Below, one piece after another: positions 27,477 to 50,918 of a DNA stretch of 64,000 bases. A model generated the notes under the pieces. The model made no database searches, was not told where the DNA came from, and was given only the letters and a program-made list of their open reading frames with translations. The stretch covers positions 11,757,489 through 11,821,488 of the forward strand of contig CM037873.1 in NCBI GenBank assembly GCA_021292105.1, given 5' to 3'. The stretch comes from Anadara kagoshimensis (taxonomy: Eukaryota > Mollusca > Bivalvia > Arcoida > Arcidae). The position numbers were made by a program, and so were the translations under genes. Within the stretch, counting starts at the first letter, position 1. Each line of letters begins with the position of its first letter.

Positions 27477-27538
27477 TTGGACCACAGATTTGATGGTTTT
27501 TAAGGCTTTGAGATTTATTTATACCTGCCGAATAAAGA

Positions 27539-29444
27539 ATGGATGGCCAGATAACTGACTTAGATCGAATAAACCCCGGTCTGTTCGAGTTGGATTTGAA
27601 CATTAGTTCTACATTAGATCCAGAACAATTAAAGGATGTTTATCTATATCTTTGCAGAACAAGAAAGGAAAATCCTACCCCAAACGTATATAATATACTT
27701 GATTGTATGATAGCGTTCATAGAGAATAAACGACCTCTGTCAAAACGAATAGACATGAAACGTTTGGAAACCATTTTAAAAGATAACCCTGATCACTTAA
27801 ACGCTTTAGCAGATATAGAGATGATATATAGGCAAATGCATATGGTTGCACGTGCTGAAACATATAACACCAGGAAAAATGAAATACTTAAAGGCAACTC
27901 CCCACAACATATCCGTCAAAAAGCGATATGTTTTCTCGAGCAAGGTTATTGTGTTCTAGCAGAGTACGACAATAACATTGGAGAGGCATCAAAATATCAT
28001 ACCGCCATTGAATATTTAAAAAATGGTATCCATATGTTAGAAAGCTTACCTGACTCTGATCCAACTGAATGCATAATATGGAAATATTATATCGCTTGGG
28101 CTTACATGCGGTATGAAAGACGAATAAAAGTCAAGTACACGTCTTGTCTGTCTTACTTTTTTGAGGTGATAAAATATCTAGAAAATTTGGATGACGAGGA
28201 TAATAACTTTTACATTGCACGAAGTTATATATGCATAGGATGGATTGCAATAAAAGATTCTTTAGACCAAAATTCTATCAAAGACCATTCATTAGATTTT
28301 CAGGAAATATTAGATAACCCATTAGCAGCATGTGAGAGAGCGTATTTAATGCGACCACGGGATACAGTTGTACTAAATCGATATGCAAGATGCCTTATCA
28401 AGAACTTGCGCTCTAAAAATCGTAAGGATATAATAGAACACTTGGAATTAGCAGAGTTGCTTTTAAATGAATCACTGGATATCTCACCTGAATCTAACTG
28501 GGGAGCGTACACTACAAGAATAAATCTTTGTCAAACCTGGACAAAAACTGGAGTTATTGAAATGGATGCTGATAGAAAAAAAACGCTCCTTTTAAGAACC
28601 GTAGAAGATGGTCGAAAATGTTTTGAAACAAAAATTTCAATGAGAAATTGCGCTGAGATGGGAACTATTTGTCACAGACTTGCCATATTTCCCAACAAGG
28701 ATTCTTTACAAGGACGCGGTTTTGTACAAGAAGAAGAATATCTTTATGAAGCTTTGGCTTTTCTCCATCGAGAGCGTATCCGTGGCGGAAAAATGAATTA
28801 CTTCAACAACTTCCAAATGGGCCGTTGTTTATCTGACTTACAGGAATACAGAGCAGCTGTTGAGTGGTCAAAAAGGGCAATGTATATATCCAGACCAGAT
28901 AATTTATGGTTTTCTTTTCAGAATGCATGTTCCTATTTGTTCTCATTATACGCCAGCGACAATGAAACAAACGATGAACCAGAATTTGAAAATGGTGAAG
29001 CAGATCAAGAGTATTTGTTAGAAGAGCTTTTAGTTCTTATAGTTTATGGATTCACCGTCTCAATAGAACATGACTTTGTAGAACAAATGACAAAATCTAC
29101 GATCAAATGTATGCGAAAACAAATTTTATCTGTTGTTGCATATTTCAATAAATCACAATATTCTACTGTTCCTCTCTATGTGGACACAATGCAAGGTATA
29201 AAGACATATTTAAAGCCATATCAAAGAGGATATGCTAAAAACATAGCAATCCATCAAGACGAAACGCTGGATGAGCCATTTGTGAACATTTATCCACCAT
29301 TGCCAAGAGATGGGCATTTGGATAATTCTCAAGACACATACAATTTCTTTGTATTCGGCAGTTGTAAAGATAGTGGATGGATAATAACACACCTGTTAAG
29401 GCAGCTAGAGAATTCTTTTGACGGAAATGAAAAAATACTAAGAG
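27539..29444 (+). CDS. TTC22-like TPR / TIR protein, exon with TPR region and first part of TIR (copy A)
   Basis: Acceptor CATTTCAG ends at 27476; the ATG at 27539 is the one conserved with copy B, where an extra upstream ATG exists only in copy B. The exon encodes 635 residues plus one base and stops at donor AGAG|GTAAGT (29445). Residues 1-20 (DLDRINPGLFELDL) and the blocks LKDNPDHLNALADIEMIYRQ (~80-100), FLEQGY (~131), ARSYICIGWIA (~223), AYLMRPRDTVVLNRYARCL (~268) and SNWGAYTTRI (~320) resemble the animal TPR protein TTC22 in order and spacing. Helical TPR-like repeats continue to about 480. From about residue 600 (TYNFFVFGSCKDSGWIITHL) it is TIR box 1 and helix A. There is no signal peptide or membrane segment, so the protein is probably cytosolic. 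Joined to exon 30521 the protein is 742 residues. Reading past the donor adds 17 residues and a stop (29497), a possible intron-retained form without the rest of the TIR. Confidence 0.85.
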
Positions 29445-30520
29445 GTAAGTGTCTTTATAAAGTGACAGTGGTTAATGTGTCCATAAATATTAACTAGTAA
29501 GTTTATTTAAGAGGTTTTTAAACACCTATGTTACCAAACTTTTTGGTCTTCACATTTGCCTGCAATGTTCCTGGGCCCAGTTAACTGTTAATTTTGTATT
29601 GTATTATTTGTATTTACTAATAAATATAAATATTGTTTAAACTAACATTTGCTGGACAATATTTTATTCCATGTGGCCTTCATATTTGCTAGGCAGTATT
29701 TTGGTCTCTTCGGCCTTCACATTGGCTAGACGCTAAAAGCTGACCTACTCTTTGGCCTCGTTATTTTTTATTTGCACCAATTCTACTGTTATTTATGGTC
29801 ATTATTACCGTGATGATACAGAACATGCATCATCATTTTCATAAAATAGAATTAGCCAAAATTACTTAATTCTTTATTATATGTATACAAGGTGTCTCAG
29901 AATTGTTTTTAAAACATTTATACTATTTTAATTTATCACCCCGACATGTTTGTTATTGTTTTGTTTCCTCCTTTTTCGTGTTCTGGATTACACAAATTAT
30001 TGTCAAGTACATGTATATGTTTTTCCTTCAACTGTTTTTATAATACATTATACTACTGTTAATTTTACACAACTAGACGGACGTTTCGGAATAAAATTCC
30101 TCATCATTAGTGTTTGGACCAAAATTGTAAAACCAAGGAACCAAATTACATTTACCCATATTTAGCTAAGAAAGTACTTTTTAGCATGAGGAAGTATATC
30201 CTAGTTTTCGAGGATTTCAAATTGCTAAGGAAGTTCAACTTCAGACATAGGTACCCTGAATGGATTTTAAGCATTTTATAAAAAAAAACATATAACGTAT
30301 CACATATATAAATAGGGTTCCCGAGCACCTATGACTACAGCTAGTAAAATTAATTAAAAGTGACACACTTTCCTGGTGAAAGTTCACATGTTTAAACTAA
30401 TTTGTCATCTCTAATTCTCTGATTTGACTCGCCAGTGCTTCTTAACACTGCCATCAGATCGTTGGCAACATATTATATATCATAATTCTCACTGCTATTT
30501 TTTGTGTTTTTGTTTTGAAG
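29445..30520 (+). other. Intron splitting the TIR domain, copy A
   Basis: GTAAGT to TTTTGAAG, phase 1, 1076 bp. Contains a worn Penelope-like tail (about 30310-30415: TTCCTGGTGAAAGTTCACAT, GTTTAAACTAATTTGTCAT). About 210 bp at 29540-29750 is absent from copy B between short TTTGGTCT / TTTGGCCT matches. Confidence 0.75.
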
Positions 30521-30843
30521 GCTGCATTGACAGACGTGATTTCAAAATAGGAGAACCTGTCATTGATAACATCTCCAACAGTATTACCAAGAGCAGCCAT
30601 GTATTGGTGATTCTTTCGCCGGCTTTTCTAGAACACCGCCTCAACCAACTTCACGGCAATTCAAGAATAAAGGAATTGATGAAACAAAAAGAGGAAGAAG
30701 ATGAAAAAGCAGTCATTCTTGTGATGATACAGAAGTGCTCAATTCCAGAATCCCTGAAACATCTACAATGTATTGACTTGACAGAACATACCAATATGTT
30801 ACAGGAAATATTAAAACTGAAATCAATTCTATTAAATGACTAA
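30521..30843 (+). CDS. TTC22-like TPR / TIR protein, exon with the rest of the TIR domain (copy A)
   Basis: Acceptor TGTTTTGAAG ends at 30520. The phase-1 junction gives G, then CIDRRDFKIGEPVIDNI (box 2 / BB loop), SHVLVILSPAFLEH (box around strand D) and EKAVILVMIQ (strand E region), ending at TAA 30841-30843 (107 residues). The RDFxxGxxxxDNI motif is TLR-like. The usual BB-loop Pro (xPG) is Ile here. The Trp normally found in the helix after LSPxF is Ser, but the Glu at the position of the SARM1 catalytic Glu is kept (KEL, residue 687 of the joined protein). Function as adaptor or NAD hydrolase cannot be settled from sequence. A frame starting upstream at 30424 is intron and was excluded. 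Confidence 0.88.
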
Positions 30844-32320
30844 ATTAATACAAATGAATTTGAAACAAAAAAGGATGTTATTTAAAACAATTTACAACAT
30901 ATAAAGAAATGACTGATTAAGGATACCTATGTTTATACACCAATCTATGATATCTATGATAAATGACTTTATTGGCATTTGGTACAGATCTTGTGACAGA
31001 CTAACATTTGGCTTATGAAAAAGAGTTGGAAAAGTTGAGATATGGATGGCTAGTGGCTGAAAAAGCTACTATGATAAATAATATATATATATAAGCAATT
31101 GCCAAAAAGCGTTCAAGATTTTTTCAAGATGAAAACATTATTTTAGCTGTCAAACCCATATTTTTAGCAGAGTGTTGTTTCCATTAAATCTTGTGAAGAT
31201 TTTCAGCCTGTAATGCTTACATGTTTAAGGCTGTCATATCACTGCAGACGGAAAATATTCACAAAATAAAGTTGTTGAAAACATTATTCATCTTCAATCT
31301 GGTGTTTTATATAGATTTTATCTTGATATTTATATTTTTTATTTTTCCTAGAAAAATATTCTTATTGCATACATTAAAACCATCAATTTACAGTGTCGAT
31401 TTCGAATTTTTGAAATTTGTGATGATGATTAATATACATGCAAACCTGTTTTTTTTAATTTTTCTCAAATTGCATAAAAAATGCATACATTTAGATCATT
31501 AAGTTAAGTTATCACTTAAGAAAAACTTTTTTACAATTTCATGAAATTTGACATGATGATTATAATATGGTCAATATAAATTTGTATAGCTGGTATGGAT
31601 GGCTGTGTGTAATCAGTGATTTAAAGTTGTTTTATTATACCGGCTTTGAACTTTACAAATTTAATTTATATTATAGACCTCTTAAATAAATTCCTTATTT
31701 GTGGATACAATAGCATAGTTATCATCATTTTATTATGATATTGAAACTACTTTAATTCAAATACATTTGTTCGAAGACATAGGACATGTAAATAAATGAG
31801 AGGAGAGTTCAGTTTTATGATCAGAATGCTATTGGTAACCAAGTATCTGGATATTCATACAACAGATATTCTTGCAAATACAAATGCTAATAGATGTTAG
31901 CATTCTTATACATTTACGTGTATATATTTTATTAAAACTAATTGTTTTATGTACAACAATAAAAAAATTTCATCATTGTTTATATTCATTATTTTATAAA
32001 TTGCAGCCAATGTGAAACGGATAAAACAGGTGTCAAGATGAATTGTTTCCAATTATCTATTTATCAATTTTCTGAAAGGAATTTTACTGGTTATTGGTGT
32101 TACAGGTATTTCACAATTATTTCTAAACTAAGATTTTCTTTAACTAAAATCAAGCCAATTTTCCCAATCTTTTTGACACTAAGAACTAAATAATTTTGTT
32201 CAAACTAAATACAAATGTTATACAGTTGAAGTGATCTTCATAATGATGTCTGAAAAACCAAATCAGAAAATTATCGTTGTACCCAATTTGCCATGTTGAA
32301 GTTAAGAAAAATCTTAATTA
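30844..32320. other. 3' flank of TPR-TIR copy A
   Basis: Aligned with copy B 50919-53440; AT-rich, no coding exon recognised. Translations in this stretch are low-complexity and hydrophobic by base composition. Confidence 0.55.
31265..31270 (+). promoter_or_regulatory. Possible polyadenylation signal, TPR-TIR copy A
   Basis: AATAAA about 420 bp after the stop. The matching place in copy B (about 51338) reads CAAAAACAATCC, so it is not conserved; weak evidence. Confidence 0.3.
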
Positions 32321-32323
32321 AGG

Positions 32324-32640
32324 TGAATTATTGATTGATTGAATTTGGTTTTACATCTCATCAAGAATATTTCTCTTATATTCAGTCATACCTGCAACAG
32401 GTGAAGTGCCAATAATGTTCATCTTTGCAGTGTGCTCAGGCCAATGTGCTAAGAGAGTTCTTCAACATGTCATCACTGCTGTGACATTGATTTTCAAGGT
32501 CTCTTCCAAAGGACTCCTTGGTTTTCATTTCTAAATTCAGTGCTTGGTCAAGTATTGGTCAGACATAGGTCTGGGTTAGAACCCATTACTTACCTTATAA
32601 AGAGCAAGCACTCTACTAGAGGAGCTACTGTATTGATTCT
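32324..32640 (-). mobile_element. tRNA-headed SINE, copy A
   Basis: On the minus strand a tRNA-like head (GTAGCTCCTCTAGTAGAGTG, then CTTGCTCTTTATAAGGTAAG and the B-box-like GGGTTCTAACCC) is followed by a body, with an ATTGATTGA tail near 32330. Partner in copy B at 53449-53810; same family at 57729-58080. Confidence 0.75.
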
Positions 32641-32749
32641 TACTTAAGAAACGATAGTTAAACCATCGCCTTTTCCAAAAATGCATCATATATAGTTCAC
32701 TGAAAGAGGCTGATAATAATTCTTTAAAAACTTTTTAAAACATGGACTT

Positions 32750-33115
32750 ATTATACCCCCACTAACTGGTTTAAGGGGGTATAATGGAATCGCCATGTCT
32801 GTCTCTCTGTCCGTGTAAAATCTTGTCTGGGCCATCTTTTATAATTGCTTTTACGACTCAGAAAACTTCACATGAACAACCTTAATGGTTTAAAGGTGTG
32901 TCATGACCTTGAATCAAGGTCATATCTGAAAGGTCAAGGTTGCAGAAAAAGTATGTTTGAAAACGGTGTCCGGGTCATACCTCATAACTACTTTGAACCA
33001 CTGTCATAAAACTTCATATGAATAATCTACATGGTCAAGGTGTGTAATGAATGACCTTCAATCAAGACCATATTAGAAAGGTCAAGGTCGCAGGAAAATA
33101 TTAAGAGACAGTTCT
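32750..33115. repeat. Dispersed repeat with GGGGGTATAATGG and AAGGTCAAGG motifs
   Basis: TTATACCCCCACTAACTGG inverted to GGGGGTATAATGG, then CATGTCTGTCTCTCTGTCCG and two related blocks containing TCATAAAACTTCATATGAA and ACCTTGAATCAAGGTCATAT. The partner in copy B is 53890-54235. It looks like an old mobile repeat; its class is unknown to me. Confidence 0.5.
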
Positions 33116-35220
33116 AGTTTTAAAATGCCTTTTCATTACTTTTATTTTCTGCTGGGTGACGTAAAGTTGTTTAGTATGGAATGCACAGAAAAAATTCTGA
33201 TAAAAACAACTTCATTTTTTGTAATAATGATATGTTAACAGTGTCATTGAAGGTTTTATTGGGTTTCTAACAAAAGAATGTAATAGTGACAACATAAAAA
33301 ACTAAATTCCAGATTTTAAAGAAAATCAAATAATATTTCGATGCCTATTTCTCTAAACATAATTACATACCTGACGGACATGTCAGATACATTTTTAAAT
33401 GGTTACCACCTATGGACTTAAATTCCAAATTTAGCTTAAATTCAGCTAGTGGTTTCAGAGGAGAAGGCTTATGTTTATGGGTGCTTAAAAGCTTTCCCAT
33501 GCAATAAGTCAATACTGGTTTTGCCAGGTGAGCTAAAAGAATGAGCAGAGTAGACAAAAAACAAAATAAAAATTATAAATATAAAATGGAAAATAAGGAA
33601 AATGTACACAAATTGGACGTAGCCATCCAACTGAATGGTGTCACACACTCCCTCAGCCCTTTCAACAGACTGATATACTTTCACAGGCAATCCCATCGGT
33701 AAATCCCACATCCAGTAACAGTGTAATGTCATCTGGTTTTATTTCTAATTCATCTTTCCATAACTATACATTTCATTTTACCAATAATAAGTAATACATG
33801 TGTGAGCACATCCAACGTGGTGGCCACGTTTATCAACTGAAAGCAGATGAGTGATTGATCACGCGTCTTCTTAACGCTGATTGGCTGATTATAAAAAATA
33901 ATCGGGTCATATTCATCTGCCTCATGATGACTATCGATGTAGATTTCATTAAACTTGATTTAAATGTTTTTTTTAATTTCTTAAATAATTAAAGAATATC
34001 TAAATTAAATTATAAGGAATAACTGTGATATCATTTTTTTATTGGTGTATCAGTTATTCCTTAAATGAAAAAACATAAGTTGCATAATTAAAAATCAAAT
34101 GATATGTATTAACACGGGGGACAATCAGCATAAAAGTGAAAGCATGATCAGCCCGCATATCTAACTTGATCAAAACATTGTCGAAGTGTTTGCATTAACT
34201 ACGGGGTTTTGGAATGTAGTCATTTGGCAAGGAAACTTAATGCACATATGCATCTTTCGTAGAATACATTTTATTTTTAAATCCATGCACTATCATACAA
34301 AAGTAAGGTCAACAAACCGTCGAAACGAGCGTTTTCAAAAGGAAGCGTGATCAACATAAGTCACGTGATTATCCCCTTTGATTTAGGGTTAGCTCTGCAA
34401 TTCGCTGATTGCTAATTTTGACAATTTCTGGCTCAAAAAATACTTTTTGGGTACCGTAGTATCTTTTTTCGTTTTTTTTTTAATTTCAAGGTAAGGCAGA
34501 TAAAGATCACCATTTTTTTTCTTTTATGATTTTTTTCTTTTATATTTTTTTTTACACAAGTATGAAAAAGTAAAACAAGTTTTACAAATTGTTGATAATC
34601 AATAATCAAGAAAATCTATACAACAGATTAGTAGAACTACCGCTATATTAATATTTCAGACATGTTTGCCGTCTTTGTTACCGTAAATCGGGATTTTTGC
34701 TGTGGTTTTATTTATGGCGATTTGCGGATAAAAAAATTCGCAAAAATTAAACCCGTAAAAATTATATCGGAAAAAAATTAATTTAATTCCCGGAATTGTC
34801 AATCATACGCTTTGGGAGATTGTTTTTTATCCGATAAAGTATTTATTTCAGTACGATGTATCTTACATGGAGTCTCTGATTAGATTCTATTTATTTTTTA
34901 TCAATTAAAATTATGGAAAAAATGGTCCGATATTAAAAGATTATAATCGCGTTTTTATGTTGTTTATTTACACTATTTGCCGGTATAGGAGCTCATATCA
35001 AGATAAAGTTGTATGTTTTCTGAAGTCACAAGTAGATTTATCAATAAAAAAGAAATTGAAAACTACTCACAAGTGTTGCAAATTAAGTTTAATTATCAAT
35101 TCACATCAGCTTGGATGACACTCTACTATCAGCTGACTATGTTTACTCAACCGTCACAGGAAGCACTCTGACCATACAGAATATATTTATGAACTCAATT
35201 CTGATTGGCAGAGATTGTCT
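33116..35220. other. Non-coding end of copy A and junction spacer
   Basis: Aligned to copy B until about 34675. 34676-35220 has no counterpart in copy B or to its right. No gene seen. Confidence 0.55.
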
Positions 35221-35370
35221 TCTTAAACAGGAGGAACTTACCCTTCCAGAGCACCCGGCCTCACTTTCCTGGTGGAAGTTGACGTGTATAACCTAATTTG
35301 TCAGTTCCAAAGTTTTTACTTTGCTTCTGGATTGTGATTCGGATATGAATTAGCATGTTTGTTTTTGATT
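35221..35370 (+). mobile_element. Penelope-like 3' tail at the duplication junction
   Basis: AAACAGGAGGAACTTACCCT, CCAGAGCACCCGGCCTCACT, CTAATTTGTCAGTTCCAAAG, then TTTGTTTTTGATT ending exactly where copy B similarity begins. Either the element inserted at the junction, or the junction formed at its end. Confidence 0.75.
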
Positions 35371-37547
35371 ATGACAAACACTATGGTTAAAATGACTGTT
35401 CGTAAGACTTTACTGCCCGAGGATGTGGGGTCGGCGATTAGCCACCAATATTAGCTAATTACAGAACATAATTTTGTTGAACAATAGGCTTCATTGACTG
35501 ATATGTAACCACCGTAATTTTTGACAAGTTAGATCACATAATGTAATTTTATTTGTCATTCGAGTGTTAAAGTTATCAACGACTTTACCGACCCTAAAAT
35601 GACTGTTGTATATTAAAGACCCGTTAAGACTAGTCAATGTTGTTGATTTTATTGTTCAAATGCTTAATAAAGGTGGGCAAAATCCAATTGATGGAAGACC
35701 TTTTTTGTTCGACGGAATAATACCAGTCGTATTCGGTCATTATATAGTTTATTTGCACATTTGAAATAGGTTGACCAATCAGATTTTTTTTAATTTGTCC
35801 AGATCGATACATTTTTAGTGCGCAAAGTTGCCATTTAGGTACTTTTTATAGTAAAGTGTTTGATTTTGGTACAATCTCCATAAGTCCGAAATTTTAGTAC
35901 TTTTAATTAAAAAAAACCTGTCAAATGTGAAAAATCAGTCTAATTTGACCTTTTTACATTAGCCGTCCATTTATCTTATTTCATGGAACAAATCCGTCAA
36001 AAACGGATAAATCTGTCGAATTAGTCAGCCTGTTAAAACACTACATTTGATTTTCGTAAAATATAAATGGGACATTGAATTGCCATAAAAGGTATTCTTT
36101 TAAGTATTCTAGTTGATTCATATAACACAAACTAAGCATGACCTAAATAGTGATTTTTTAAAAATTAAATGTTAAATTGGATTACACGTAATGATACCTG
36201 TAAATTGCTCATGCCGGTTATCTTATAAAACATCTCCAACATACCTGTATATACGTTGACTATGACCGTGAATGTGTGAACTTAGGAGGGGGCGCTTTCA
36301 CAATCTAACTTTGCATTATATCAGTAAAAATAAAAAATTACGTATATCTACATTGACATACGCATAATATTCATCTAGAATGTGTTTATTATTATTATTA
36401 TTAGTATTATTAAACATACCTTGCTTTATTGCAAGCGATATTTCAATATAACGGGCGCAAGAACGATCCTTTAACCTTTTTTTAACAGGCTTACTAACAA
36501 AATGAATGGGTGTCCTTACATTGTAAAATTTATTGTTTAACAACACAAATATTCAAAGAGGTCTACACATACGTATCACTCTCATACGGAGAGAAAGGAC
36601 ATTGAAATAAATATATGTTTGTGTTCATACGGAATGATATTTTGCTCCCAAGTTCATCATCAAACCAGGAAAATATGAAACCGTGAAAATAAAGAAATAT
36701 ACAGTAAATTTTAAAAAATCAAAATATGAGACATACATGGGAACGTTCAACCAAAAACAAACATACTAATCCATGTCCGAATCACAATCCAGAAGCAAAG
36801 TAAAAACGTTTTGTATTTGATTGAATTAATTATTTATAATTATTTTCATTGTGTAAAAGGATTATTTTACTTTCACCCTCACTTCTCTTGTGATATTTAT
36901 ATGAAAATAAATCCAGAACATTTAGGAAGTTTACTGACAAACCTGTCTTTTATTTTAGAATGTGTTAACAATGAAAAGAGAAAATTTGACATTTCAAGTA
37001 AAAGAAACATAAAGCCTTTCAATTTTTAAGATTTTAACTAGTTAGGAAAATAAAACAACACATCGCATGTTTTATAATGTGCGACGTAAGCCATATTAGA
37101 TATTTTTTCACAAGCGGATAGACATTCACAAATTACCCTATCTTTCAATGAAATTGGAAGTGATTTGTCGTCAAATCCAACATTTGCTTTTATATTTTTA
37201 ACTTAATCAAAGTGTGCTCTAACATATAAAAAATGGTCATCAAATTGGCATGAAAAAAAACAGTCCATATTGTCACATTTTCCCAGAATTAAACAAGAAG
37301 ATAAAGAAATAGTGCAAAATTACTGCTATATTTATAACTTTAAATGGAAGTAATTCCTAAAATTTTAGAAACAATACTGAAATTACCGGTATTTAATAAG
37401 GAACTCAAATACATGTCGTCAATTTTTGTATCTCCCTCTCTCTCTCTGTGATTTTTATTTCATGAAAAAATATGAAAATATAAATATACATAAAAATTGC
37501 TGACACGTTGAGCATGACCGCACACGCAAACTGATCTGTATCCAAAA
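35371..37547. other. Non-coding start of copy B
   Basis: No gene. Aligned to copy A 12348-13080 and 14460-15400. A minus-strand Penelope-like tail lies at 36751-36809. Confidence 0.6.
36751..36809 (-). mobile_element. Short Penelope-like 3' tail, minus strand
   Basis: CAAAAACAAACATACTAATC, then CATGTCCGAATCACAATCCA and GAAGCAAAGTAAAAACG, the inverse of the family terminus. Inserted in or near the region where copies A and B diverge. Confidence 0.7.
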
Positions 37548-37775
37548 TGCCCCTGGATTAATTTGACGTCCTATAAGTCCATGTTTCTTTAACTTTCAAT
37601 TTTGATTACACACGTGGTGGGTGAAACTGACTAAACAGGAGGTGCCGCATATCTTTCCGAAGCACCCGACCTCACATCCCTGGTTGAATACACGTTTTTA
37701 ATTTAAATTGTGGGTTCAAAAGCGTTTACTTTGTTTTGGGATTATGGTTTGGTTATATATTGGCTGTGTTTTTTC
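37548..37775 (+). mobile_element. Penelope-like 3' tail, copy B partner
   Basis: Same as 17560-17790. Confidence 0.75.
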
Positions 37776-38814
37776 CGGTTCTATTTAGTATGAAAGTATA
37801 CTTATACTGAGTCGGGCATTAATCATTATTATCAAATCATTTCTTTACCGACAGAATGTTACATTATAATATATTATGATAAAAATGTCATGTCAATAAG
37901 GAGAGAAGATTAAAAACGTTGCCTTTGATGCTATACAGAACGTAAAACTAAATTACATGAAGTTGAGTTAATTGAACCGTTTCCCCTATACATTTGTATC
38001 GCCCGATGCTTCAAGTTTGTTTGTGATTGTTGACATTAATAGTGAAAAGAAACAGTTCTGAGGTCGCGATATAAACATAGTTACAACAAAAGATAATGAA
38101 TTCTAAATAGATACATGGCATAAAAAGGCGAAAAATGAAGATACAATGTTAAATTCAGTATATAGAGCCCCGTTAAAAATATCGAGACATGCCATACCAT
38201 GTTCTTAAATGTTTTGTTAAAAATGTTTAAAGTTCCGTCATACGTGTTTTAAATGTGTTTTTAAATTAAAAAACCAATTCATTCTATGGAACAATGAAGA
38301 CTAACCAAGACGTATTTTATTCATAGTTGGATAGATATGAATACTGATAATGACCTAAATAGTGATTTTCTGAAAATATTATATAGGTTTACTTGTAAAC
38401 AATTCCTGTAACCACATGTATATGTAATAAATCTGCCATGGTGATCAGTTTGAACATATAAACAGTGATATCACGGTCCTGAAATAATGTACACATAGGA
38501 ATTCATCAAACTATAACTCTATCTGATGACAAATAAATGTTAAATAGACCTTTTGGTGGAATAATACAGATACAACAGATTCTTTTCCTTTATGAGGTAT
38601 GTTTTATGTATTTTATACTTAAGGTATTCATATTGTTGATTTTTTTAACTTTTTCCATTACATCGAAGATGGTAAAAAATATGACGATACTTATCGTACT
38701 GTAAATCCAAAATTTTGAAGTACTGCCTCATCTATTATACTTGTGTTGTTTTAAAATGATTTATTTTTTCAAAACCGGCTAAATGTATTATGATTTGAGA
38801 TTTTCGTGTTTATT

Positions 38815-40374: not shown

Positions 40375-40626
40375 CTATGAACAAGTTTTATCCAAAAATA
40401 AAAATTCTTTTTTTATTTTAATCGTCAATGGAAATCTCCCTGTTTCCCCAAAATCCATGTAATTCGAAGTAGATTTTCTAAGTTTTAAAATTCTCTTTAA
40501 AAATTTCAAGTATAAGTTTTCTAACATTGCAATATTTTCATATCCACAGACTTCACAAGCATAAGTTAATATGGGTTCAATCATTTGGTCAAATAGTTGT
40601 AACTGACATTCTATTGATAAGTCCAA
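40375..40626 (-). pseudogene. LINE reverse transcriptase C-terminal fragment
   Basis: Open piece with LFDQMIEPILTYACEVCGYE and FLKRILKLRKST, the post-palm region common to invertebrate non-LTR elements. It is followed on the minus strand, after breaks, by the piece at 39840-40058. Confidence 0.75.
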
Positions 40627-41647
40627 ATTATTGTTTTTTTTTTATTAAATACAAAATAATGCTTTAGATGCTTGTTCCACTAAACGTTTCCTTGCTTGAA
40701 AATATTTCCCATTTGATTTAAATATAAGCCTAAATAACAATATTCATCTACATATTCTATGTTTATATCTCTAAACTTAATAATAGGTCATTTTTTAACT
40801 TTTTGTTTTGAAAACGCCACAATTTTGGTTTTTGAAATATTGACTTCCAATTTCCATAGATCACAATATTGTATAAATATATTAATAGCAAACTGCATGT
40901 CTGTTTCATTATCAGCAAAAATTATAGTGTCATTAGCATATAGAAGAAGGAAACACTCCTATTTTTTGAGTAAACATATTCGTTATAGTGGGCAAACCCA
41001 TGTTGTTGTTTTCGGATAAAAAACTTCTAAAGTCATTAAGAAAGATTACAAATACAAATGGAGATAAATTTCCCCCTTGTCTCACTCCAACATTGCATAT
41101 AAAATAATTTTACATATCTTCTCCCATTTTTACACATGATTTAATTCCGTTATACATATTTTTATTGCATTAAAACATTTCCCATTTATTTGACTTTTCT
41201 GCAATTTTAGCCATAAACCCCCTCTCCAAACAGTATCACACCACAGTCTAGTGCCGAAAAAATTAAAACATGTTTAGTAATGACCTTGTACGTTTCATTT
41301 TGTGAAAACTTGAGTGACAGTATAAGTCTCACTGTAATTGGTGGTTTGGAAATAGTTCTTCTATAACCACATGTAACATTATTATAAATTATTATTCAAA
41401 TTCATATATCTGAATTACGAGACGCACGGAACCATAACCTAAATGCAATGACAAAAACCACATACTAAAGCTAAAACTAAATTACAAGAGGCTGTGTTAA
41501 TAAAACTTTTCACTGAAACCAACTATTATTATCATCCTGTCAGATTGTATAGATTTGTTTTAGAGGAAGGTCTATGTTTGTTCTTAATGATAGTGATAAT
41601 AACAACACGGAAAGTACAAAAGGCATAGTCACAACATTAAATAATTG

Positions 41648-41907
41648 CTATAGGTAAACAACATTGACCTGTCCGTTTGACCTTTCATTAGGAATATTCA
41701 TATAGGATGGCCCAACCAATAAATGGGAAGTGTTAAGATCCAAGTTAATACATACACAATACACAGGTGTACTCTATGAGGTGAGTATATCTCATGATGT
41801 ATACAGAATAAACACCTGTGCTTCCTATACACAGATGTACTTGGTCCGTGATAAATATTTAAATGAAAGGTCAAGCGGACAGGTCAAAGTTTTTTACTTA
41901 TATATAG
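41648..41907. mobile_element. Hairpin-ended element (TATAGGTAAA...), copy B partner
   Basis: Same as 20865-21122, therefore older than the segmental duplication. Confidence 0.75.
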
Positions 41908-42363
41908 GTAAATGGTATACAAAACATATCGATATAGGATTAATTAACTGACGTTATTTAAATGTATTATGTATTAAGATACTGACGGGAATTGTGCATT
42001 TGTTAAAATATCAAAATAAATCATCATGTTGTCGTGTTTAGGTTAAATAAATTATTTATGTAAACGTATTTAAAATCTATTTTTAAAACTCAAAATTAAA
42101 CGATAAAAAAAATCAATAAAAACACACAGGATTCCTTAAATGGGGGTTACATGGGCCAAATAAGCTACTTTAGTCGTATTTTATTGCGAACCGATTTATA
42201 GGAATACTATCATGCCCTAAATAGTGATTTGTAAAAAGTTAAACAAGTAATATACCTTATAACAGAGATATCCTATCGATTCACGTAATTAGTCAAATCA
42301 GAGCCATATAAAACTAAAGATTGGCAACTCCTATATACCGCTATTCGCCTACAGCGAACTATC

Positions 42364-43060
42364 GTACTTGCAACTATGATAAAAAATTTGATTTTTTTTT
42401 CAATCTTTTACTAGAATTCTATTTGCAACATGTCTATAATACTTAAATCCATTGTAAGATAAAAGTTACATACAATTTTGAAATAAATAAATTACTTTTC
42501 AATAGTTTAAAAACGAGAGAAAAATTGAAATTTTAATTTTTTGACGGGTTTGGGCTTGTACTTGCAACTATGATAAAGAATTATATTATTTTCAATCTTT
42601 TACAAAAATTCTAATTGCAACATGTCTGTAATACTTAAACCCATTGTAAGATAAAAGATACATACAATTTTGAAATAAATAAATTGCTTCTCAATGAATT
42701 TAAAAATGAGAGAAAAATTGAAATTTAAATCTTTTGACGGGGTTGGGGATATACTTGCAACTTTTATTAGCTTCAAACTTTTTTTTATTTATTTATTTAT
42801 TTATTTATTTTGTAACATGTTTATATTACTTATACCCATTGTATGAGAAAACAACGTACAACTTTGAGATATTAAAATGTCTTTGATTTTAAAAATGACA
42901 GAAGATTGAAATTTTCATCCTAAGTGAACTTTTGACGGGTTGTGGGTATACTTACAACTATGATAAAGAACGTGTATATGATACTTATACCCATTGTATG
43001 AGAAATTTACATACAATTTTGAAATGTACAGATTCCTTTAAAATGAATTCAAAGTTGAGA
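42364..43060. repeat. ~190-bp tandem repeat, expanded in copy B
   Basis: Units start at ACTTGCAACTATGATAAA (about 42366, 42559, then diverged near 42758 and 42950), each with TGTAACATG/TGCAACATG, ACCCATTGTA and GACGGG landmarks. Copy A has fewer units (22900-23110). Confidence 0.7.
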
Positions 43061-43104
43061 GCTGCACCAGAGATTTTAATTCGCAGTTCCGTGCGCTTCG
43101 TCCC

Positions 43105-43136
43105 CCCCCTCTCTCTCTCTCTCTCTCTCTCCCTCT

Positions 43137-43166
<30 letters not shown>
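43105..43166. repeat. (CT)n(GT)n microsatellite
   Basis: CT repeats switching to GT repeats; the copy A counterpart has only (TC)n. Confidence 0.9.
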
Positions 43167-43167
<1 letters not shown>

Positions 43168-43175
43168 GAGTAAAA

Positions 43176-44096
43176 ATTTTTGTACACAATAAGGTATTAA
43201 TAAATGGAGTTAATTAACAATTGAACTGTTTAGAAATGCGGTTCATAGTCGATATGAACGCAATTGATATGCAAGCAAACTGAATAACGCGCGTTAGCGC
43301 GTTATGATTAGTTTGCCTTTTCTATTTTCTTTTCTTTTTCTTGGTTCAAAATCATTTTAGAAAATTTTAATTCCGCGCTTTGTCAACAAGGATTTTCGAT
43401 TAACGGAACAGCTGATGGAACAGCAGATCCAACTGATCAGCCGTGTAGTTTGGCGCCAGAAATTCTAGGACAAAATAGTGCGTGGAAAAAACAACAAATT
43501 GCATAACAAAATTTCTACTAAATTGTTCAATTTTATATTAAATACACTTATTTCGGTAGTAAATAATCACAATTATGCAAACAATCAATATAGTTCCGGT
43601 TTTGTGTATTTCATATTGTGTATTCATACGCCGATTGTTGTGAATGGAATTCCAGTGACGTCACCAAGGTAGATCTTGCTGTTCATAGCCGATATGAACG
43701 CAATTGCTCTGAAACCTTGTGTGGAAGACAGAAAACAGACAAAATGTAAATATTTAGTGATATCCGTTTACGAGTAATTAATGAACATCGATAACTCAAT
43801 TAATCACTACCGATACTGAGAATGGACACACTTCGAATCTGCAAAGGGATTAATGAAGGGGATTCTCTTAATGAGGAATGTCCAATAAACAAGCAAATCA
43901 GTAATTTAAATTAAGAAATAAGTTTTTTCAATTAACAATATACTCGTGACAGTTTTTTGTGTGTATATATATATATATATATATATTATCCAGTCAATGA
44001 CAATCATGGCGCAAAAACAATATTCTCATTCACTAAATTAATATTATTATATTAACCTACAGACAAATAGATTTATTCATTTATTTGAATTATCAC
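43176..44096. other. Copy B-specific non-coding stretch
   Basis: No gene. Contains AATTGAACTGTTTAGAAAT ... CAAACTGAATAACGCGCG, also found at 10320-10400, hence a dispersed repeat, and a (TA)n tract at about 43966-43986. Confidence 0.5.
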
Positions 44097-47000
44097 GATA
44101 TATATAGGTCAAATAACCAATAGAGTATATTGCGTCATCATCAAATCGTAGTCTACGATGAAACAGTTATGAGAAACCACGCATTTTCAAAAAGTAAATA
44201 GTAACTTTAAAACTTCGATACGTCGAAATATATCTCCATACATTCAAGATAAAACATGTGATTTAAGTATATAGATACAAACTGGCAGTATCATAAATAT
44301 AAAAAACATACCGATTTATTGAATTAAAAAACGAGATAATTAAAATGACCATGTTCAAATCACAAAGTAATGTAAAACTGACAGGCTAAATTGTGACTAT
44401 GAAGGCGAAAGTAAACAATAATAACTAGAGATTGTAACTGGGATACCAGTTACGTATGATTCCCCACCTTCCATAAACTATATATTATCTAAAATATACA
44501 TCTGACGTATATATGTCTGGGTACATTTGACTTTGACTTTTAAACTGGCTGACTTGGTATTGTACAGATGGGTTATAGACAAAACGTACGTACCTTTGCC
44601 AAAACATTTTGGTGGGTACGTTCTGGTATGTGTACGTTTTGTAAAAATGTGGGTGCGTTTCGTCCAAAAATGGGTGCGTTCTGGTAGGGTACGTTATGGC
44701 ATGGGTACGTTTTAACCTGCGCCAATACAGATCTATTACTTGGATCTGTCCAGTAAAATTTTTGATTTAAAAGATTTCATGCTCGAATGGACTTTTTTGA
44801 CGTTTAATAATTGGAGTACCTCATAGGTGAAAGCATAGGCTTGGTATAATTAAAGTGTCATAACCAGCTTATGTCCATTCACAATTGGTTTCCCCGGGTA
44901 TTCAACTACGTATTTATTACGCAATTTACACCCTCCCAACTTTGAGATAAAAGAAATTGATGACTTCTTGTATATCTACACTGATAACAGATTATTGGTA
45001 CCAAATTTCATCTAAATCCATCAAGCCGTTTCCGAGATCTGCATCAACAAACTATGATAGTAGACCTTGAGGAATAATAATAATAAGAAGAAGAATAAGA
45101 AGAAACAGAACGAAAACAATGTGATTCCCCACCTTTGGTGATGGGGAATCATAATAATAAAGTTTTGGGGGATGGAAAAAGTTACATTGGTCATGCGGAA
45201 AGCAGTCAGTGGGAGACAGTAAGAGTGCACCAACAACAGACGAAAAAACGGCTACAAAAAGACAGTGAATATTTTTATATTTGCCATAGAGGGCATTGTA
45301 AATGTTTTCTATGGTTTATATGTATCGATGGGGACATCACACAAAAGTGAGACAGAGAGAACGTTTAAATATGTTTTACCCGATATTGAATGGTTACGAT
45401 TTGACATCTTAAATAATCTCCTTTTGTTTAATTATCTCCAAATTATATCCACGTTGTTATGTTATAGTTATTGTGTTCGGAAATAACAAAACAATCGCAT
45501 GAAAGTACTAGCAAAAATGTTATTAAATTGTTTGCGAAAGGATCAACGAGTACTAAACCTTCTTATATAATCAAGTCCCAGAGATTTTAATAATCCTCAC
45601 AGACATTCATACCAAATACGTTGTTGTTTCACCTAAGAGGCCTCCAACAACATTATTCTTATTTGTAAGACATTCTTCCTTGAACGTCTCACGATGGAAC
45701 TTGGTTTGCATATTATATCGAGGAATCCATTTACACAGCTAATTTCACCAACGACCAAATCATTTCAAACCATGGAGGAGATTTTGAATCTTTTGGTATC
45801 AATATAAAAGAGGAATAACTTGATCTTCCTTACTTGTATTGAACTGCTAAAATTCACAAAAATCCATAAAATATAAAACAGGTCCCTTAAATGGATCACT
45901 TATTTATTATCAGTAATCCAAACAGCACAATTTTTTAAAGAATTACTTGAGCATCTTCTTATACCTAATTTTGTGAAAAGGTATAAAACCTTTGATTTTT
46001 TAAAACTTTGCACCATTATATTCATCCTTAATTGAAAAAACGCCTAAAACAAATATTTTACAAAAACGGTAAGACAAGATAATCTATGATTTCACTCGAT
46101 TCCTGTATAAACCATATTAGGTCACCAACAGACTGTGTAACGATTATATCCTACCGATCACCCTGCAGAACCACCGTGGATCATACACGAATACGGAGAT
46201 CGGAGTGTAGTTCAACTTCAGGATGAGACACTGCTGTATGTTTTAGTAACCTAGATAGCTGTCCCTAGACAAACCAAAATTAACCCTTCATATACCATTT
46301 TATGTCACTAAAACACTGTGTAACGGTTATATCATACCGATCACATCAACAAATCATTTACAAAACCAATTTGAATGTATCAACACAGCGACATGTGACT
46401 GGTGACTGAGCTAGAAATACCGTCGTTTGGCATTTTGTCTGACAAAATATTGAAAATAATAATGAATTTGACTTAGTAGGAACTTCCGTCAAAGAAATCA
46501 ATTGCACTTTCATCCATGGAAATCAAATATTTTGTTTCAATATCACAACATCTTTACTAATGTCCGTATTTGCCGTAAATATTTGCGATAAATATACATG
46601 TTTACTACGAGGCGGGCGCCATTGACGTTGATCAAGGGAAGTAACTCTCATACTGACTAGATATAAACAGGCCTGACCCGACATGGATTATATTAGGTCA
46701 CCACGTGACCGATATTGTCGAATAAAATTCACAGAAACTAGTGAGAGGTAGGATATGATAATCTATGATTTCACTCGAGTGGCCAGATATTTTCATCTCG
46801 AACGAATCTCCGTCGAAATTTCCTTATGTCAGTCTGAAACGAGTAATTAATTATTTTTCTCGCATATAAAATCTAATATGGTAGCCTAAGGACATTGAAA
46901 TCTCCTACTACAAAGCAAATATTTTGTAGGCGGATGAATACGTGTTTGACGTAATGCTGTAACGTCATCAATAACCTATAGCTCAGAGCAGAAATGTGAA

Positions 47001-47725
47001 CCTACGCGATAATAAATAACAACAAAATACATTTTCTTTTTTATATACTTATTGGTCAAAACTATTTTTATAACAAATAATAATAATAAAATAGAATTAA
47101 AAATCATAGAAACCAGTCGTTAGGGAAACTTTAACATGTTATGATATACCTCGTATCATGAATTACGTCCCTTACTATTATTCCATTGTACTGAGATTCC
47201 TTACACGTACGTGTTCACGCCGGGTGCGATATGGAAAAAATATCGTTGCAGCTATCCCGTGAGATTAATCTGTCACATATGCGAGAAATACATATCTAGT
47301 GTTGAACAGGAATAGCGGTTATTTATACAAGCACCATACGGATTGCTGTTATAAATACACAACCAGCATATACCACATCAAACAAGGTTTTGTTAAATGT
47401 ACTAGTTGTGTACCACTATCTTGTAATTTGTTTTCTTATCCGTAAGAAGCAGAATGCACTACCTTTCTAGGGATGTTTGATGGTATTATTCTTTCTTGGG
47501 TGTTTAATTTTGATCTGTTTTTTTGTATTAAATATCCATTGCTTGTTTCCAAGAGCGTGATTTTACTCATTTGAATAAAAACATTTAAGTCAATGCATTA
47601 TAACCAGCCTAGATACATAGCTTATTTATTATGAAATATAGAGTTATGTAGATATTATGTAAATATCTAGGTGATTTGTCAGCAGCTATTCTGTTATTCA
47701 TAATTGTGTTTGACTTTCATTTTAG
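44097..47725. other. Upstream region of TPR-TIR copy B
   Basis: Aligned to 24518-27476. Differs by a 0.68-kb block at 46100-46778. No coding exon recognised. Confidence 0.55.
46078..46778. repeat. Copy B-specific block between 22-bp direct repeats
   Basis: GATAATCTATGATTTCACTC+GA occurs at 46078-46099 and 46757-46778 but once in copy A (26516-26537, last bases AA). The 657 bp between contain two related sub-blocks (ACTGTGTAACGATTATATCC near 46131 and ACTGTGTAACGGTTATATCA near 46314) and start and end with ATTAGGTCACC. A 22-bp target duplication would be unusual for a transposon. Confidence 0.7.
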
Positions 47726-47787
47726 TTGGACCACAGATTTGATGGTTTTTCAAGGTTATGAGATTTATTGATCCCTGCCAAATAAAA

Positions 47788-49695
47788 ATGGATGACCAGA
47801 TAATTGAATTAGAGGGAATAAAACCCGGTCTGTTCGAGTTGGATTTGAACATTAGTTCTAGATCAGATCCAGAACAATTAAAGGATGTTTATCTATATCT
47901 TTGCAGAACAAGAAAGGAAGACCCTACCCCAAACGTTTATAATATACTTGATTGTATGTTAGCGTTCATCGAGAACAAACGACCTCTGTCAAAACGAGAA
48001 GCTATGAAACGTTTGGAAGCCATTTTAAAAGATCATCCTGATCACTTAAACGCTTTAGCAGACTTAGAGATGATATATAGGCAAATGCATATGGTTGCAC
48101 GTGCTGAAACATATAACATCAGGAAAAATGAAATACTAAAAGGCAACTACCCACAACATATCCGTCAAAAAGCGATATGTTTTCTCGAGCAAGGTTATTG
48201 TATTCAAGCAGAGTACGCCGATGACATTGGACAGGCATCAAAATATCATACCGCCATTAATATTTAAAACATGGTATCCATATGTTAGAAAGCTCACCTG
48301 ACTCAGATCCAACTGAATGCATAATATGGAAATATTATATCGCTTGGGCTTACATGCGGTATGAAAGACGAAGAAATGTCGAGTCCACATATTGTCTGTC
48401 TTACTTTTTTGAGGTGATAAATTATCTAGAAAATTTGGATGACGAGGATAATAACTTTTACATTGCACGAAGTTATATCTGCATAGGATGGATTGCAATA
48501 AGAGATTCCTTAGACAACAATTCTATCACAGACCATTTCGTAGATTTTCAGGAAATATTAGATAACCCATTAGTGGCATGTGAGAGAGCGTATTTAATGC
48601 GACCACGGGATACAGTTGTACTAAATCGATATGCAAGATGCCTTATCAAGAACTTCAGGTGCTCTGAAAATCGCAATGATATAATAGGACAGTTGGAATT
48701 AGCAGAGTTGCTTTTAAATGAATCACTGGATATCTCACCTGAATCCAACTGGGGAGCATACACTACAAGAATAGATCTATGTCAAACCTGGACAAAAACT
48801 GGAGTTATTGAAATGGATGCTGATAGAACAAAAGCGCTCCTTTTAAGAACCGTAGAAGATGGTCGAAAATGTTCTGAAACAAAAATTTCAGAGAAAGATT
48901 GCGCTGAGATGGGAAATATTTGTCACAGACTTGCCAGATTCCCCAACAAGGATTTTTTACTAGGACGCGGTTTTGTACAAGAAGAAGAATATCTTTATGA
49001 AGCTTTGGCTTTTCTTCATCTAGGGCGTATCCGTGGCGGAAAAATGAATTACTTCAACAATTTCCAAATGGGCCGTTGTTTATCTGACTTGCAGGAATAC
49101 AGAGCAGCTGTTGAGTGGTCAAAAAGGGCAATGTATTTATCCAAACCAGATAAATTATGGCATTCTTTTCAGAATGCATGTTACTATTTGTTCTCATTAT
49201 TTGCAAGCGACAATGAAACAAACGATGAACCAGAATTTGAAAATGGTGAAGCAGATCAAGAGTATTTGTTAGAAGAGCTTTTAGTTCTTGTAGTTTATGG
49301 TTTCACCGTCTCAACTGAAAATGACTTTGTAGAACGAATGACAAAATCTACGATCAAATTTATGCGAAAACAAATTTTATCTGCTGTTACATATTTCAAT
49401 AAATCACAATATTCTACTGTTCCTCTGTATGTAGACACAATGCAAGGTATAAAGACATATTTAAAGCCATATCAAAGAGGATATGCTGAAAACATAGCAA
49501 TCCCTCAAGACGAAACGCTGGATGAGCCATTTGAGAACATTTATCCACCATTGCCAAGAGTTAGACATTTGGATAATTCTGAAGACACATACAATTTCTT
49601 TGTATTCAGCAGTTGTAAAGACAGTGGATGGATAATAACACACTTGTTAAGGCAGCTAGAGAATTCTTTTGACGAAAATGAAAAAACACTTAGAG
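47788..49695 (+). pseudogene. TTC22-like TPR / TIR protein, copy B, first coding exon with 1-base frameshift
   Basis: Acceptor CATTTTAG ends at 47725. The start is taken at 47788 by alignment; the ATG at 47758 is not present in copy A (TTTGAG instead of TATGAG). After codon 157 (GCC ATT) one G present in copy A is missing between 48258 and 48259, giving AAT ATT TAA and a stop at 48265-48267. Beyond it the frame resumes unbroken from 48282 to the donor (TAGAG|GTAAG, 49696), with no further stop over about 470 codons and one extra codon near 48660. A single defect in an otherwise open long exon means a recent null allele, a sequencing or assembly error, or re-initiation at ATG 48282. Domain layout as copy A. 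Confidence 0.75.
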
Positions 49696-50106
49696 GTAAG
49701 TGTCTTCATAAAGTGACAGTGGTTAATGTGTCCATAAATATAAACTAGTAAGTTTATTTAGGAGGTTTTTAGACACTTATGTTTAACACACTTTTTGGTC
49801 TCGTTATTTTTTATTTGCACCAATTCCAATGTTATTTATGGTCAGTATCACCATGATGATACAGTACATGCATCATCATTTTCATAAAATAGAATTAGCC
49901 AAAATTATTAAATTCTTTATTATATGTATACAAGGTGTCTTAGAATTTTCTTTTAAACATTTACACTTTTTTAATTTATCACCCGACATGTTTTTTAGTT
50001 GTTTTGTTTCTTCCTATTTCGTGTTCTGGATTACAAATTACTGTCAAGTACATGTTATATGTTTTTGCCTCAACTGTTTTTTATAATACATTATACTACT
50101 GTTAAT

Positions 50107-50134
50107 CAAAAACAAACATACTAATCCATATCCG
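50107..50134 (-). mobile_element. 28-bp Penelope-like 3' tail inserted in the TIR intron of copy B
   Basis: Copy A reads GTTAATTTTACAC (about 30058). Copy B has the same with CAAAAACAAACATACTAATC plus 8 more bases inserted and AAT on both sides (50104-50106, 50135-50137). The inserted bases match the terminus of the family at 18644 and 36751. Confidence 0.8.
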
Positions 50135-50595
50135 AATTTTACACCACTAGACGGACGTTTCGGAATACAACTCCTTATCATTGGTGCTTGGACCAAAATT
50201 GTAAAACCAAGGAACCAAATTACATTTAACCATATTTAGCTAAGAAAGTACTTTTTAGCATGAGGGAGTATATCTTAGTTTTCGAGGATTTCACATTGCT
50301 AAGGAAGTTCAACTTCAGACATAGGTACCCTGAATGAATTTTAAGCATTTTATAAGCAAAAACATATAACGTATCACATATATAAATAGGGTTCCCGAGC
50401 ACATATGACTACAGCTAGTAAAAATTAATTAAAAGTGACACACGTTCCTGGTGAAATTTCACATGTTTAAACTAATTTGTCATCTCTAATTCTCTAATTT
50501 GACTCGCCAGTGCTTCTTAACACTGCCACCAGATCGTTGGCAACATATTATATATCATAATTCTCACTGCTGTTTTTTGTGTTTTTGTTTTGAAG

Positions 50596-50918
50596 GCTGT
50601 ATTGACAGACGTGATTTCAAAATAGGAGAACCTGTCATTGATAACATCTCCAACGGTATTACCAAGAGCAGCCATGTTCTGGTGATTCTTTCGCCAGCTT
50701 TTCTAGAACATCGCCTCAACCAACTTCACGGCAATTCGAGAATAAAAGAATTGATGAAACAAAAAGAGGAAGAAGATGAAAAAGCAGTCATTCTTGTGAT
50801 GATACAGAAGTGCTCAATTCCAGAATCCCTGAAACATCTACAATGTATCGACTTGACAGAACATACCAATATGTTACAGGAAATATTAAAACTGAAATCA
50901 ATTCTTTTAAATGACTAA
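50596..50918 (+). CDS. TTC22-like TPR / TIR protein, copy B, TIR exon
   Basis: Acceptor TTTTGAAG ends at 50595; stop TAA at 50916-50918. It is identical to the copy A TIR exon except one Ser to Gly (DNISNG), with about nine synonymous changes. Acceptor, phase, BB loop (RDFKIGEP) and the Glu of KEL are all kept. The intron upstream (49696-50595, 900 bp) carries a 28-bp Penelope-like tail at 50107-50134. Confidence 0.85.

Follow-up and report, generated by a model that had tools for sequence, protein, structure and literature searches.

The two neighbouring genes analysed here, copies A and B, are probably best explained as tandem TIR-TPR duplicates in which the TIR exon is strongly constrained and the first coding exon (exon 1) weakly and unevenly. 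Since the split of the two copies the TIR exon has been under strong purifying selection, while the constraint on exon 1 has been weak and uneven; for this variable part diversifying selection is unproven. A pattern familiar from Toll-like receptors, i.e. a conserved TIR domain combined with a loose sensing part, is thereby extended to a TIR-TPR protein. A count from two copies is open to over-reading, as the contrast between the exons is real but can be explained without diversifying selection, because loose loops and a block of low divergence can account for it.

Structure of the two copies

The window, i.e. the whole stretch of 64,000 nucleotides that was analysed, is free of gaps (no N) and contains both copies on the forward strand, in direct tandem and about 20 kb apart, an arrangement that would fit a duplication of one two-exon TIR-TPR gene. 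The first coding exon of copy A (27539..29444) has an open frame, encodes TPR-type helical repeats and the first ~35 residues of a TIR domain, the latter recognized by a profile match (29339..29444, 35 codons), and its end at 29444 is abutted by the donor GTAAGT. The second coding exon (exon 2, 30521..30843) encodes the bulk of the TIR domain, matches PF13676 and ends with the stop codon TAA at 30841-30843. In copy B the first coding exon (47788..49695) carries a 1-base deletion and one 3-base length difference compared with copy A, the latter keeping the frame, and the second coding exon (TIR, 50596..50918) differs from that of copy A by one amino acid. In both copies the exon borders point to a GT-AG intron with a phase-1 junction, as far as splicing can be predicted. 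A dispersed repeat in the intron (30061..30223, forward strand) is present in both copies and is therefore probably older than the duplication.

Domain identity

Exon 2 alone matches PF13676 with 45.4 bits (cut-off 28, E 1.4e-11) and PF01582 with 34.5 bits (cut-off 21.3), and the solved structures closest to it are TLR2-type TIRs. Relative to the Pfam TIR profiles it begins near position 29-33 and is thus not a whole TIR domain; the domain is split by the intron, with its first ~35 codons ending exon 1. Single proteins stayed below the Pfam cut-offs for TPR, and TPR membership was established with a four-member family profile, built from exon 1 of A, the second piece of exon 1 of B and the exons of the paralogues C and D, which among PDB sequences found a consensus TPR protein with the best E value of 9.9e-12; the TIR start in the same profile matches TLR5 (E 4.3e-4). 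The LRR that would mark a Toll-like receptor was not seen, as neither exon matched an LRR family of Pfam up to E = 1.

With exons 1 and 2 joined, both domains lie in one predicted protein, and this predicted domain content agrees with a TIR-TPR class known by name in molluscs. Judged by these domains, the product would be an intracellular adaptor- or sensor-type protein, whose TPR solenoid may provide the surface that partners or ligands contact, with the TIR domain as the signalling end. The class name occurs in a figure legend on the Pacific oyster (PMC4346834) and among the abbreviations of an Aplysia immunome, the adapter table of which contains no TIR-TPR gene (PMC9334734). Copies A and B resemble these mollusc proteins in that a TIR domain is joined to tetratricopeptide-type repeats with no LRR match, the likeness being one of class name only in these parts of the two papers.

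Most of what is seen in the two genes is ordinary, and their oddest part is a TIR domain without two canonical motifs. The BB-loop proline is missing (RDFKIGE, compared with RDFVPGK in paralogue C and RDFIPGK in TLR2), as is WCxxE (HRLNQLH, compared with SNWCSYE in C and SEWCKYE in one TLR2 chain), whereas paralogue C and TLR2 have both. Both motifs, of which WCxxE lies in alpha-C, matter to TIR domains and are signs of subtype, not of fold.

Divergence of the two exons

The preliminary description had counted 1 replaced and about 9 silent codons in the TIR exon, 23 replaced and 5 silent codons among the first ~158 codons of exon 1, and roughly 77 amino-acid differences in the whole of exon 1. 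All of these numbers were reproduced exactly (1 and 9, 23 and 5 silent-only, and 77), with the 107 codons of the TIR exon including the junction codon, with 157 of the 158 codons compared, since the one hit by the deletion in copy B was excluded, and with 634 codons compared in the whole exon. S656G is the only amino-acid difference in the TIR exon, for which dS is 0.151 and dN 0.0039, compared with a dS of 0.087, a dN of 0.056 and 24 silent-only codons in exon 1. The ratio of replacement to silent changes (N:S) differs between the exons (Fisher p = 1.9e-4), and in a model with separate omega values exon 2 obtains 0.035 and exon 1 0.66 (p = 1.3e-4). The former is significantly different from 1 (p = 2.2e-5); estimates for exon 1 are 0.64-0.66, with p = 0.07 for 0.66 against 1. 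Nowhere in exon 1 does a window of 107 codons contain fewer than 8 replacements.

The start of the TIR domain in exon 1 is not spared, having 3 replacements and 3 silent changes in 35 codons, so the border of conservation seems to follow the exon and not the domain; 3/35 replaced codons compared with 1/107 in exon 2 give p = 0.046, based on few changes. The proposed purifying selection on the signalling part is supported for the TIR exon. The replacement rate of exon 1 equals that of nearby non-coding DNA (81/1517 vs 63/1102, p = 0.73), for which 1 kb of upstream DNA and the initial 92 intron bases were used, whereas that of exon 2 lies under its own flanks (1/255 vs 18/555, p = 0.011). Gap events within 26505-31910 number 2 in coding and 30 in non-coding DNA.

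The deletion in copy B lies between 48258 and 48259 and ends the frame at 48265-48267, after 159 residues. With paralogue C as outgroup, 15 derived replacements fall on A and 8 on B, and nonsense substitutions are absent, although 6.4-7.1 would be expected (P(0) no higher than 0.002 in sets of 1000 simulations, one set per kappa value, with three such values). Decay of copy B alone is ruled out by this polarisation and by the absent nonsense substitutions, in agreement with the earlier argument that relaxed constraint on the frameshifted copy would not be sufficient. As copy B is not the faster-evolving one and its frame has no other break, a recent origin of the frameshift is probable; the reading frame of exon 1 was kept for most of the time since the split.

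A block of low divergence and gene conversion

The TIR exon sits in a stretch of ~0.9 kb in which even the non-coding DNA is less diverged. This block (30241..31118, forward strand) comprises the intron end, the TIR exon and 3' DNA, has 28 differences at 878 sites and is a candidate for either a partial conversion tract or a constrained segment. The lowest 878-site window has 27 differences, a value reached in 0 of 2000 permutations, which, like the other permutations of this analysis, ignore local correlation of divergence. The intron end differs by 2.5-3.8% and the adjoining 3' DNA by 2.9-3.6%, compared with 10.5-10.8% in the mid-intron and 6-21% further 3'; taken together, these intron and 3' flanks show reduced divergence (18/555 vs 63/1102, p = 0.03), with borders that were picked after seeing the data.

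These low values would be expected if the TIR exon and its flanks had been copied between A and B after the duplication, and conversion has precedents in mammalian TLR1/TLR6 (PMC2077338) and avian TLRs (PMC3125219). As the sole cause of the apparent conservation it is nevertheless unlikely, as the silent sites of the TIR exon (9/66) are above its flanks (18/555, p = 0.001) and not depressed relative to exon 1 (31.5/385), and as only 1 of the 10 changes in the TIR exon is a replacement where ~8 are expected (p = 5e-6). The check for conversion suggested in the preliminary description thus gave a divided answer, depressed in the flanks but not at the silent sites. In addition, no third close copy that could have acted as a donor was found in the genome among the 40 of 3679 DNA candidates and the 90 of 90 protein candidates that were scored. 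Beyond A and B there were 44 DNA matches, all to intron sequence: 43 of them are confined to the repeat, which occupies the first 187 bases of the query, and the remaining one lies at query 308-347. The next protein match after A and B has 34% identity. Judged by BLAST identity (~73%) the 3' flank further out seemed older and more diverged, but with gaps excluded its divergence is 9.5-17%, and it was not taken as evidence for conversion.

Gene conversion can therefore explain only part of the similarity of the TIR exon. The background of the block may have been lowered by regulatory constraint or by a single conversion event, either old or partial, with selection having done the rest. Copies A and B share with mammalian TLR1/TLR6 and avian TLR1A/B and TLR2A/B a TIR-coding end that is much more similar between paralogues than the sensing end; for these receptors conversion was shown with several species, according to PMC2077338 and PMC3125219, whereas the silent TIR-exon sites of A and B are not depressed and the comparison is within one species.

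The TPR part

The earlier suggestion of diversifying selection on the TPR part was not borne out by the exon-1 omega of 0.66, nor did any tested partition of exon 1 (pairwise, A against B) have an omega significantly above 1, the highest 80-codon block having 1.07. For residues 28-336 omega is 0.28 in predicted helices and 1.00 in loops (p = 6.7e-5), and for residues 28-600 it is 0.46 and 1.00 (p = 0.002), with low-confidence helix borders taken from a structure model of exon 1 (mean pLDDT 43.5) that is suited to rough use only. Within the repeat scaffold, predicted helices are moderately conserved and predicted loops change at an omega of 1.

That exon 1 was driven apart so that its TPR surface senses different ligands appears doubtful. 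Several observations speak in favour of such a drive: within residues 28-336 replaced codons are concentrated in predicted loops (17/73, compared with 18/235 in predicted helices), replaced codons of exon 1 cluster (25 close pairs vs 17.4, p = 0.016), and charge changes are in marginal excess over a neutral simulation (P 0.035-0.046). Moreover, the N-terminal N:S of A/B is the highest of nine pairs, consisting of A/B and eight control pairs (see below), and is significantly higher than in 5/8 controls taken singly and uncorrected. However, the loops fit an omega of 1.00, their silent sites are also raised (8.5/47), and the replacements equal the neutral simulation in BLOSUM and hydropathy change; the fraction of codons that are replaced is likewise neutral. 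All simulations were run with fixed base frequencies (A+T 0.67) at three values of kappa. Clustering, charge changes and the high N:S of exon 1 are hints of something beyond simple relaxation, and diversifying selection on the TPR part is neither demonstrated nor excluded by these data.

Paralogues C and D

Searching the genome with exon 1 did not yield the larger family on which a dN/dS analysis by site was to be based. Besides A itself and B in two pieces, the 6 matches comprised two pieces of C (34% and 45%) and one of D (25%), leaving two relatives with identities by alignment of 36-37% and ~24%. Paralogue C has the same two-exon TIR-TPR layout, as does D less clearly. Compared with C, the TIR exon of A/B is no better conserved (35/106, 33%) than exon 1 (222/614, 36%; p = 0.58), so the strong constraint on it does not reach far back in time, unless saturation affects both exons. 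Viral contigs scanned for the TIR exon gave 34 pattern matches and no relative.

From the loss of the BB-loop proline and WCxxE together with the 33% identity to C, one may speculate that the TIR domain was rebuilt before the duplication, acquired a novel, non-canonical role in signalling or as a scaffold and has since been held constant, with the TPR loops free or driven to vary. We regard it as improbable that A/B represent such an intracellular receptor, in which the signalling end changed first and the sensing end is changing now; if true, the pair would lend itself well to asking what a TIR domain without the usual motifs does.

Control TIR gene pairs

Ten TIR gene pairs of the same genome, hand-chosen for near-equal scores and frame lengths, were fetched as controls, of which L019/L020 (no coding differences) and L031/L032 (28 N-terminal codons only) were left out of the pooled count. 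Omega is lower in the TIR part in 5/8 pairs, the reverse holds for L021/L022 and L023/L024, and one pair is undefined. Pooled over the eight pairs, N:S is 183:165 in the N-terminal part and 13:25 in the TIR (p = 0.04), although no single control pair reaches p = 0.05 (lowest 0.073). The control pairs are thus like A/B in having a looser N-terminal part when pooled, but the N:S of exon 1 in A/B (81:31) lies above their pooled N-terminal value (p = 2.7e-4), and their N-terminal omega is 0.19-0.49 compared with 0.64-0.66. Unlike A/B, they have a single long open frame, and Pfam identified LRR-TIR, not TPR, in all six members checked, one each from 6 pairs.

The genome contains several such similar TIR gene pairs in mirrored or repeated arrangement, with alignable 3' flanks differing by 0.6-8.3%, a range that includes the ~6% of A/B non-coding DNA, but it is very unlikely that the assembler placed two haplotypes of a single locus one after the other as A and B, which would make the pattern polymorphism, given a direct tandem in a window without N gaps and aligned blocks that differ by 3.6-10.6% in 14/16 and by 17% in two, which we judge to be high for alleles. 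The 3' flanks of L023/L024, with 40.5% divergence, were taken as non-homologous.

Gene layout and domain structure

The window (positions 11757489-11821488 of contig C17, in a genome of 1.115 Gb and 36 contigs) contains a duplicated unit in two direct copies, at approximately 12.3-34.7 kb and 35.4-56.1 kb, each carrying, on the + strand, a coding region of two exons. The exons predicted from the sequence lie at 27539-29444 and 30521-30843 (both +) in copy A and at 47788-49695 and 50596-50918 (both +) in copy B, and the intron has predicted GT-AG borders and a phase-1 junction in both. In copy B one base is missing between 48258 and 48259, so that its frame stops after 159 residues; a second open frame from 48261 carries the remainder of exon 1.

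About 200 bases of the copy A intron (about 29533-29739) have no counterpart in B, reflecting either an insertion in A or a deletion in B. A dispersed intron repeat at 30061-30223, common to A and B, has 43 further genome matches (best 40 of 3679 candidates scored). Upstream, the copies are identical over 257 aligned sites at A 25747-26004 (99th percentile of permuted longest runs, 159), where the open-frame listing has no frame of at least 100 codons. Elsewhere in the window, self-comparison reveals three tandem repeat arrays (3980-5769, 5964-6643 and 59652-61120; offsets of ~50, 94 and 161 bases), the open frame 568-1242 matches reverse transcriptase (RVT_1, E 4.7e-21), and 18846-19556 on the minus strand gives a weak reverse-transcriptase-like match (E 0.078).

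Exon 2 aligns to TIR profiles, starting near profile position 29 (PF13676, E 1.4e-11), and TLR2-type TIRs are its closest solved structures. The start of the domain (YNFFVF...) forms the end of exon 1, where a profile of four family members matches TLR5 (E 4.3e-4). The name "TIR exon" thus covers 107 of the ~142 TIR codons. The TIR of A and B lacks two motifs that carry weight in TIR domains, the BB-loop proline and WCxxE; both are present in the paralogue C and in TLR2. The remainder of exon 1 is helical by prediction. TPR Pfam matches of single exon 1 sequences stay under the cut-off; the label "TPR" is nevertheless correct, because the four-member family profile matches a consensus TPR protein (E value 9.9e-12).

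Divergence between the two copies

The counts of the preliminary description proved exact on the codon alignment: exon 2 (107 codons) has 1 replaced and 9 silent-only codons (dS 0.151, dN 0.0039), exon 1 (634 codons) has 77 and 24 (dS 0.087, dN 0.056), and the first 158 codons of exon 1 have 23 and 5. Maximum likelihood puts omega at 0.66 in exon 1 (p = 0.07 for the test against 1) and at 0.035 in exon 2 (p = 2.2e-5), and the two differ (p = 1.3e-4). The observation is real; the interpretation attached to it was only partly right. The 35 TIR codons within exon 1 contain 3 replacements, in which they resemble the remainder of exon 1 (p = 0.79) and differ from exon 2 (p = 0.046). Counting of their six changes gives an omega of 0.21, so that the start of the domain is not free of constraint either.

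Both gene and pattern are of a known kind. TIR-TPR is a class named in an oyster survey (PMC4346834) and appears among the abbreviations of an Aplysia survey, whose adapter table includes no TIR-TPR gene (PMC9334734). Work on mammalian TLRs describes a conserved TIR and a more variable, selected ectodomain (PMC3276489), and other studies describe conversion of the TIR end between the paralogues TLR1 and TLR6 (PMC2077338) and between avian TLR paralogues (PMC3125219).

Constraint and possible homogenisation of the TIR exon

Gene conversion would lower divergence in the surrounding DNA as well, and A and B indeed differ at just 28/878 sites in 30241-31118, a block that takes in intron and 3' DNA. 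Across 24520-31910, the 878-site window with the fewest differences (27) starts at 30114; this value was reached in 0/2000 permutations, which ignore local correlation. The non-coding flanks of the TIR exon differ at 18/555 sites against 63/1102 beside exon 1 (p = 0.03, with borders chosen post hoc). However, silent sites of the exon (9/66) lie above these flanks (p = 0.001) and replacement sites (1/255) below them (p = 0.011). Some process has thus lowered divergence around the TIR exon, and purifying selection, as proposed earlier, is required in addition. No third close copy of the exon was found, either as DNA (best 40 of 3679 candidates scored) or by protein search (90/90 candidates scored).

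The genome search yielded two more family members, C (L015, contig C17, 27.87 Mb), which shares the two-exon layout, and D (L016, contig C6, 23.14 Mb), a distant TIR-TPR paralogue whose TIR match is weak (24 bits against a cut-off of 28). Identities in exon 1 and the TIR exon are 222/614 (36.2%) and 35/106 (33.0%) for A-C, 24.0% and 21.4% for A-D, and 24.5% and 18.4% for C-D, so that in none of these three deep comparisons is the TIR exon better conserved than exon 1. If the A-C ratio applied to A and B, their TIR exons should differ by 13.9 replacements, and 1 is seen (P = 1.3e-5), a contrast weakened by saturation at low identity.

Loose constraint on exon 1

The diversifying selection suggested for the TPR part did not emerge: omega is significantly above 1 in none of the partitions tested, and the highest of eight 80-codon blocks reaches 1.07 by counting and 1.01 when fitted alone. 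Against a neutral simulation of 113 changes, the replaced-codon fraction and mean BLOSUM and hydropathy changes are typical, charge changes are somewhat raised (0.455 vs about 0.355, P 0.035-0.046), and there is clustering of replaced codons (25 close pairs vs 17.4, P 0.016), with no clustering of silent codons seen in exon 1. The part far from neutral expectation is the reading frame: the simulations predict 6.4-7.1 nonsense substitutions and none occurred (P(0) at most 0.002), and across 26505-31910 there are 2 coding against 30 non-coding gap events.

With helix and loop borders taken from a low-confidence structure model (mean pLDDT 43.5), replaced codons in residues 28-336 number 17/73 in loops and 18/235 in helices (p = 6e-4), omega being 1.00 and 0.28, respectively; over residues 28-600 it is 1.00 and 0.46. 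Part of this contrast may reflect mutation rate, because silent sites are raised in loops too (8.5/47, residues 28-336). Sites replaced between A and B weakly avoid positions matching C (23/74 vs 214/539, p = 0.16). A repeat scaffold that is retained while the loops are left free accounts for the pattern of exon 1, and positive selection is possible.

Decay of the frameshifted copy alone is insufficient, as the preliminary description held: B is not the fast copy, because with C as outgroup 15 of the 77 replaced sites are derived in A and 8 in B (p = 0.21), with 51 unresolved and 3 facing gaps.

Comparison with other TIR gene pairs

Of ten TIR gene pairs of the same genome taken as controls, eight were usable; in six of these (all but L021/L022 and L027/L028) one member each was checked and is LRR-TIR. 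Omega is lower in the TIR than in the N-terminal part in 5/8 pairs, higher in two (L021/L022 and L023/L024), and the comparison is undefined in L027/L028; none of the 8 shows the contrast singly at p = 0.05. With the pairs pooled, replacement:silent changes stand at 183:165 in the N-terminal parts and at 13:25 in the TIR (p = 0.04). What is odd in A/B is exon 1 and not the TIR exon, because exon 1 (81:31) is looser than the N-terminal pool (p = 2.7e-4), whereas the TIR exon (1:9) is not unusual against the TIR pool (p = 0.24). Singly, exon 1 is looser than 5/8 control pairs (p < 0.05, uncorrected).

Several TIR genes form mirrored opposite-strand pairs with nearly common centres, on contigs C12 (12.10/13.58 and 12.73/13.00 Mb), C13 (27.03/28.26 and 27.04/28.25 Mb) and C4 (26.79/27.23 Mb), which represent either large inverted duplications or uncollapsed assembly haplotypes. 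On contig C7, L019 and L020 (44.93 and 44.89 Mb) are TIR-bearing 876-codon frames, 48 kb apart and identical over the 835 codons compared.
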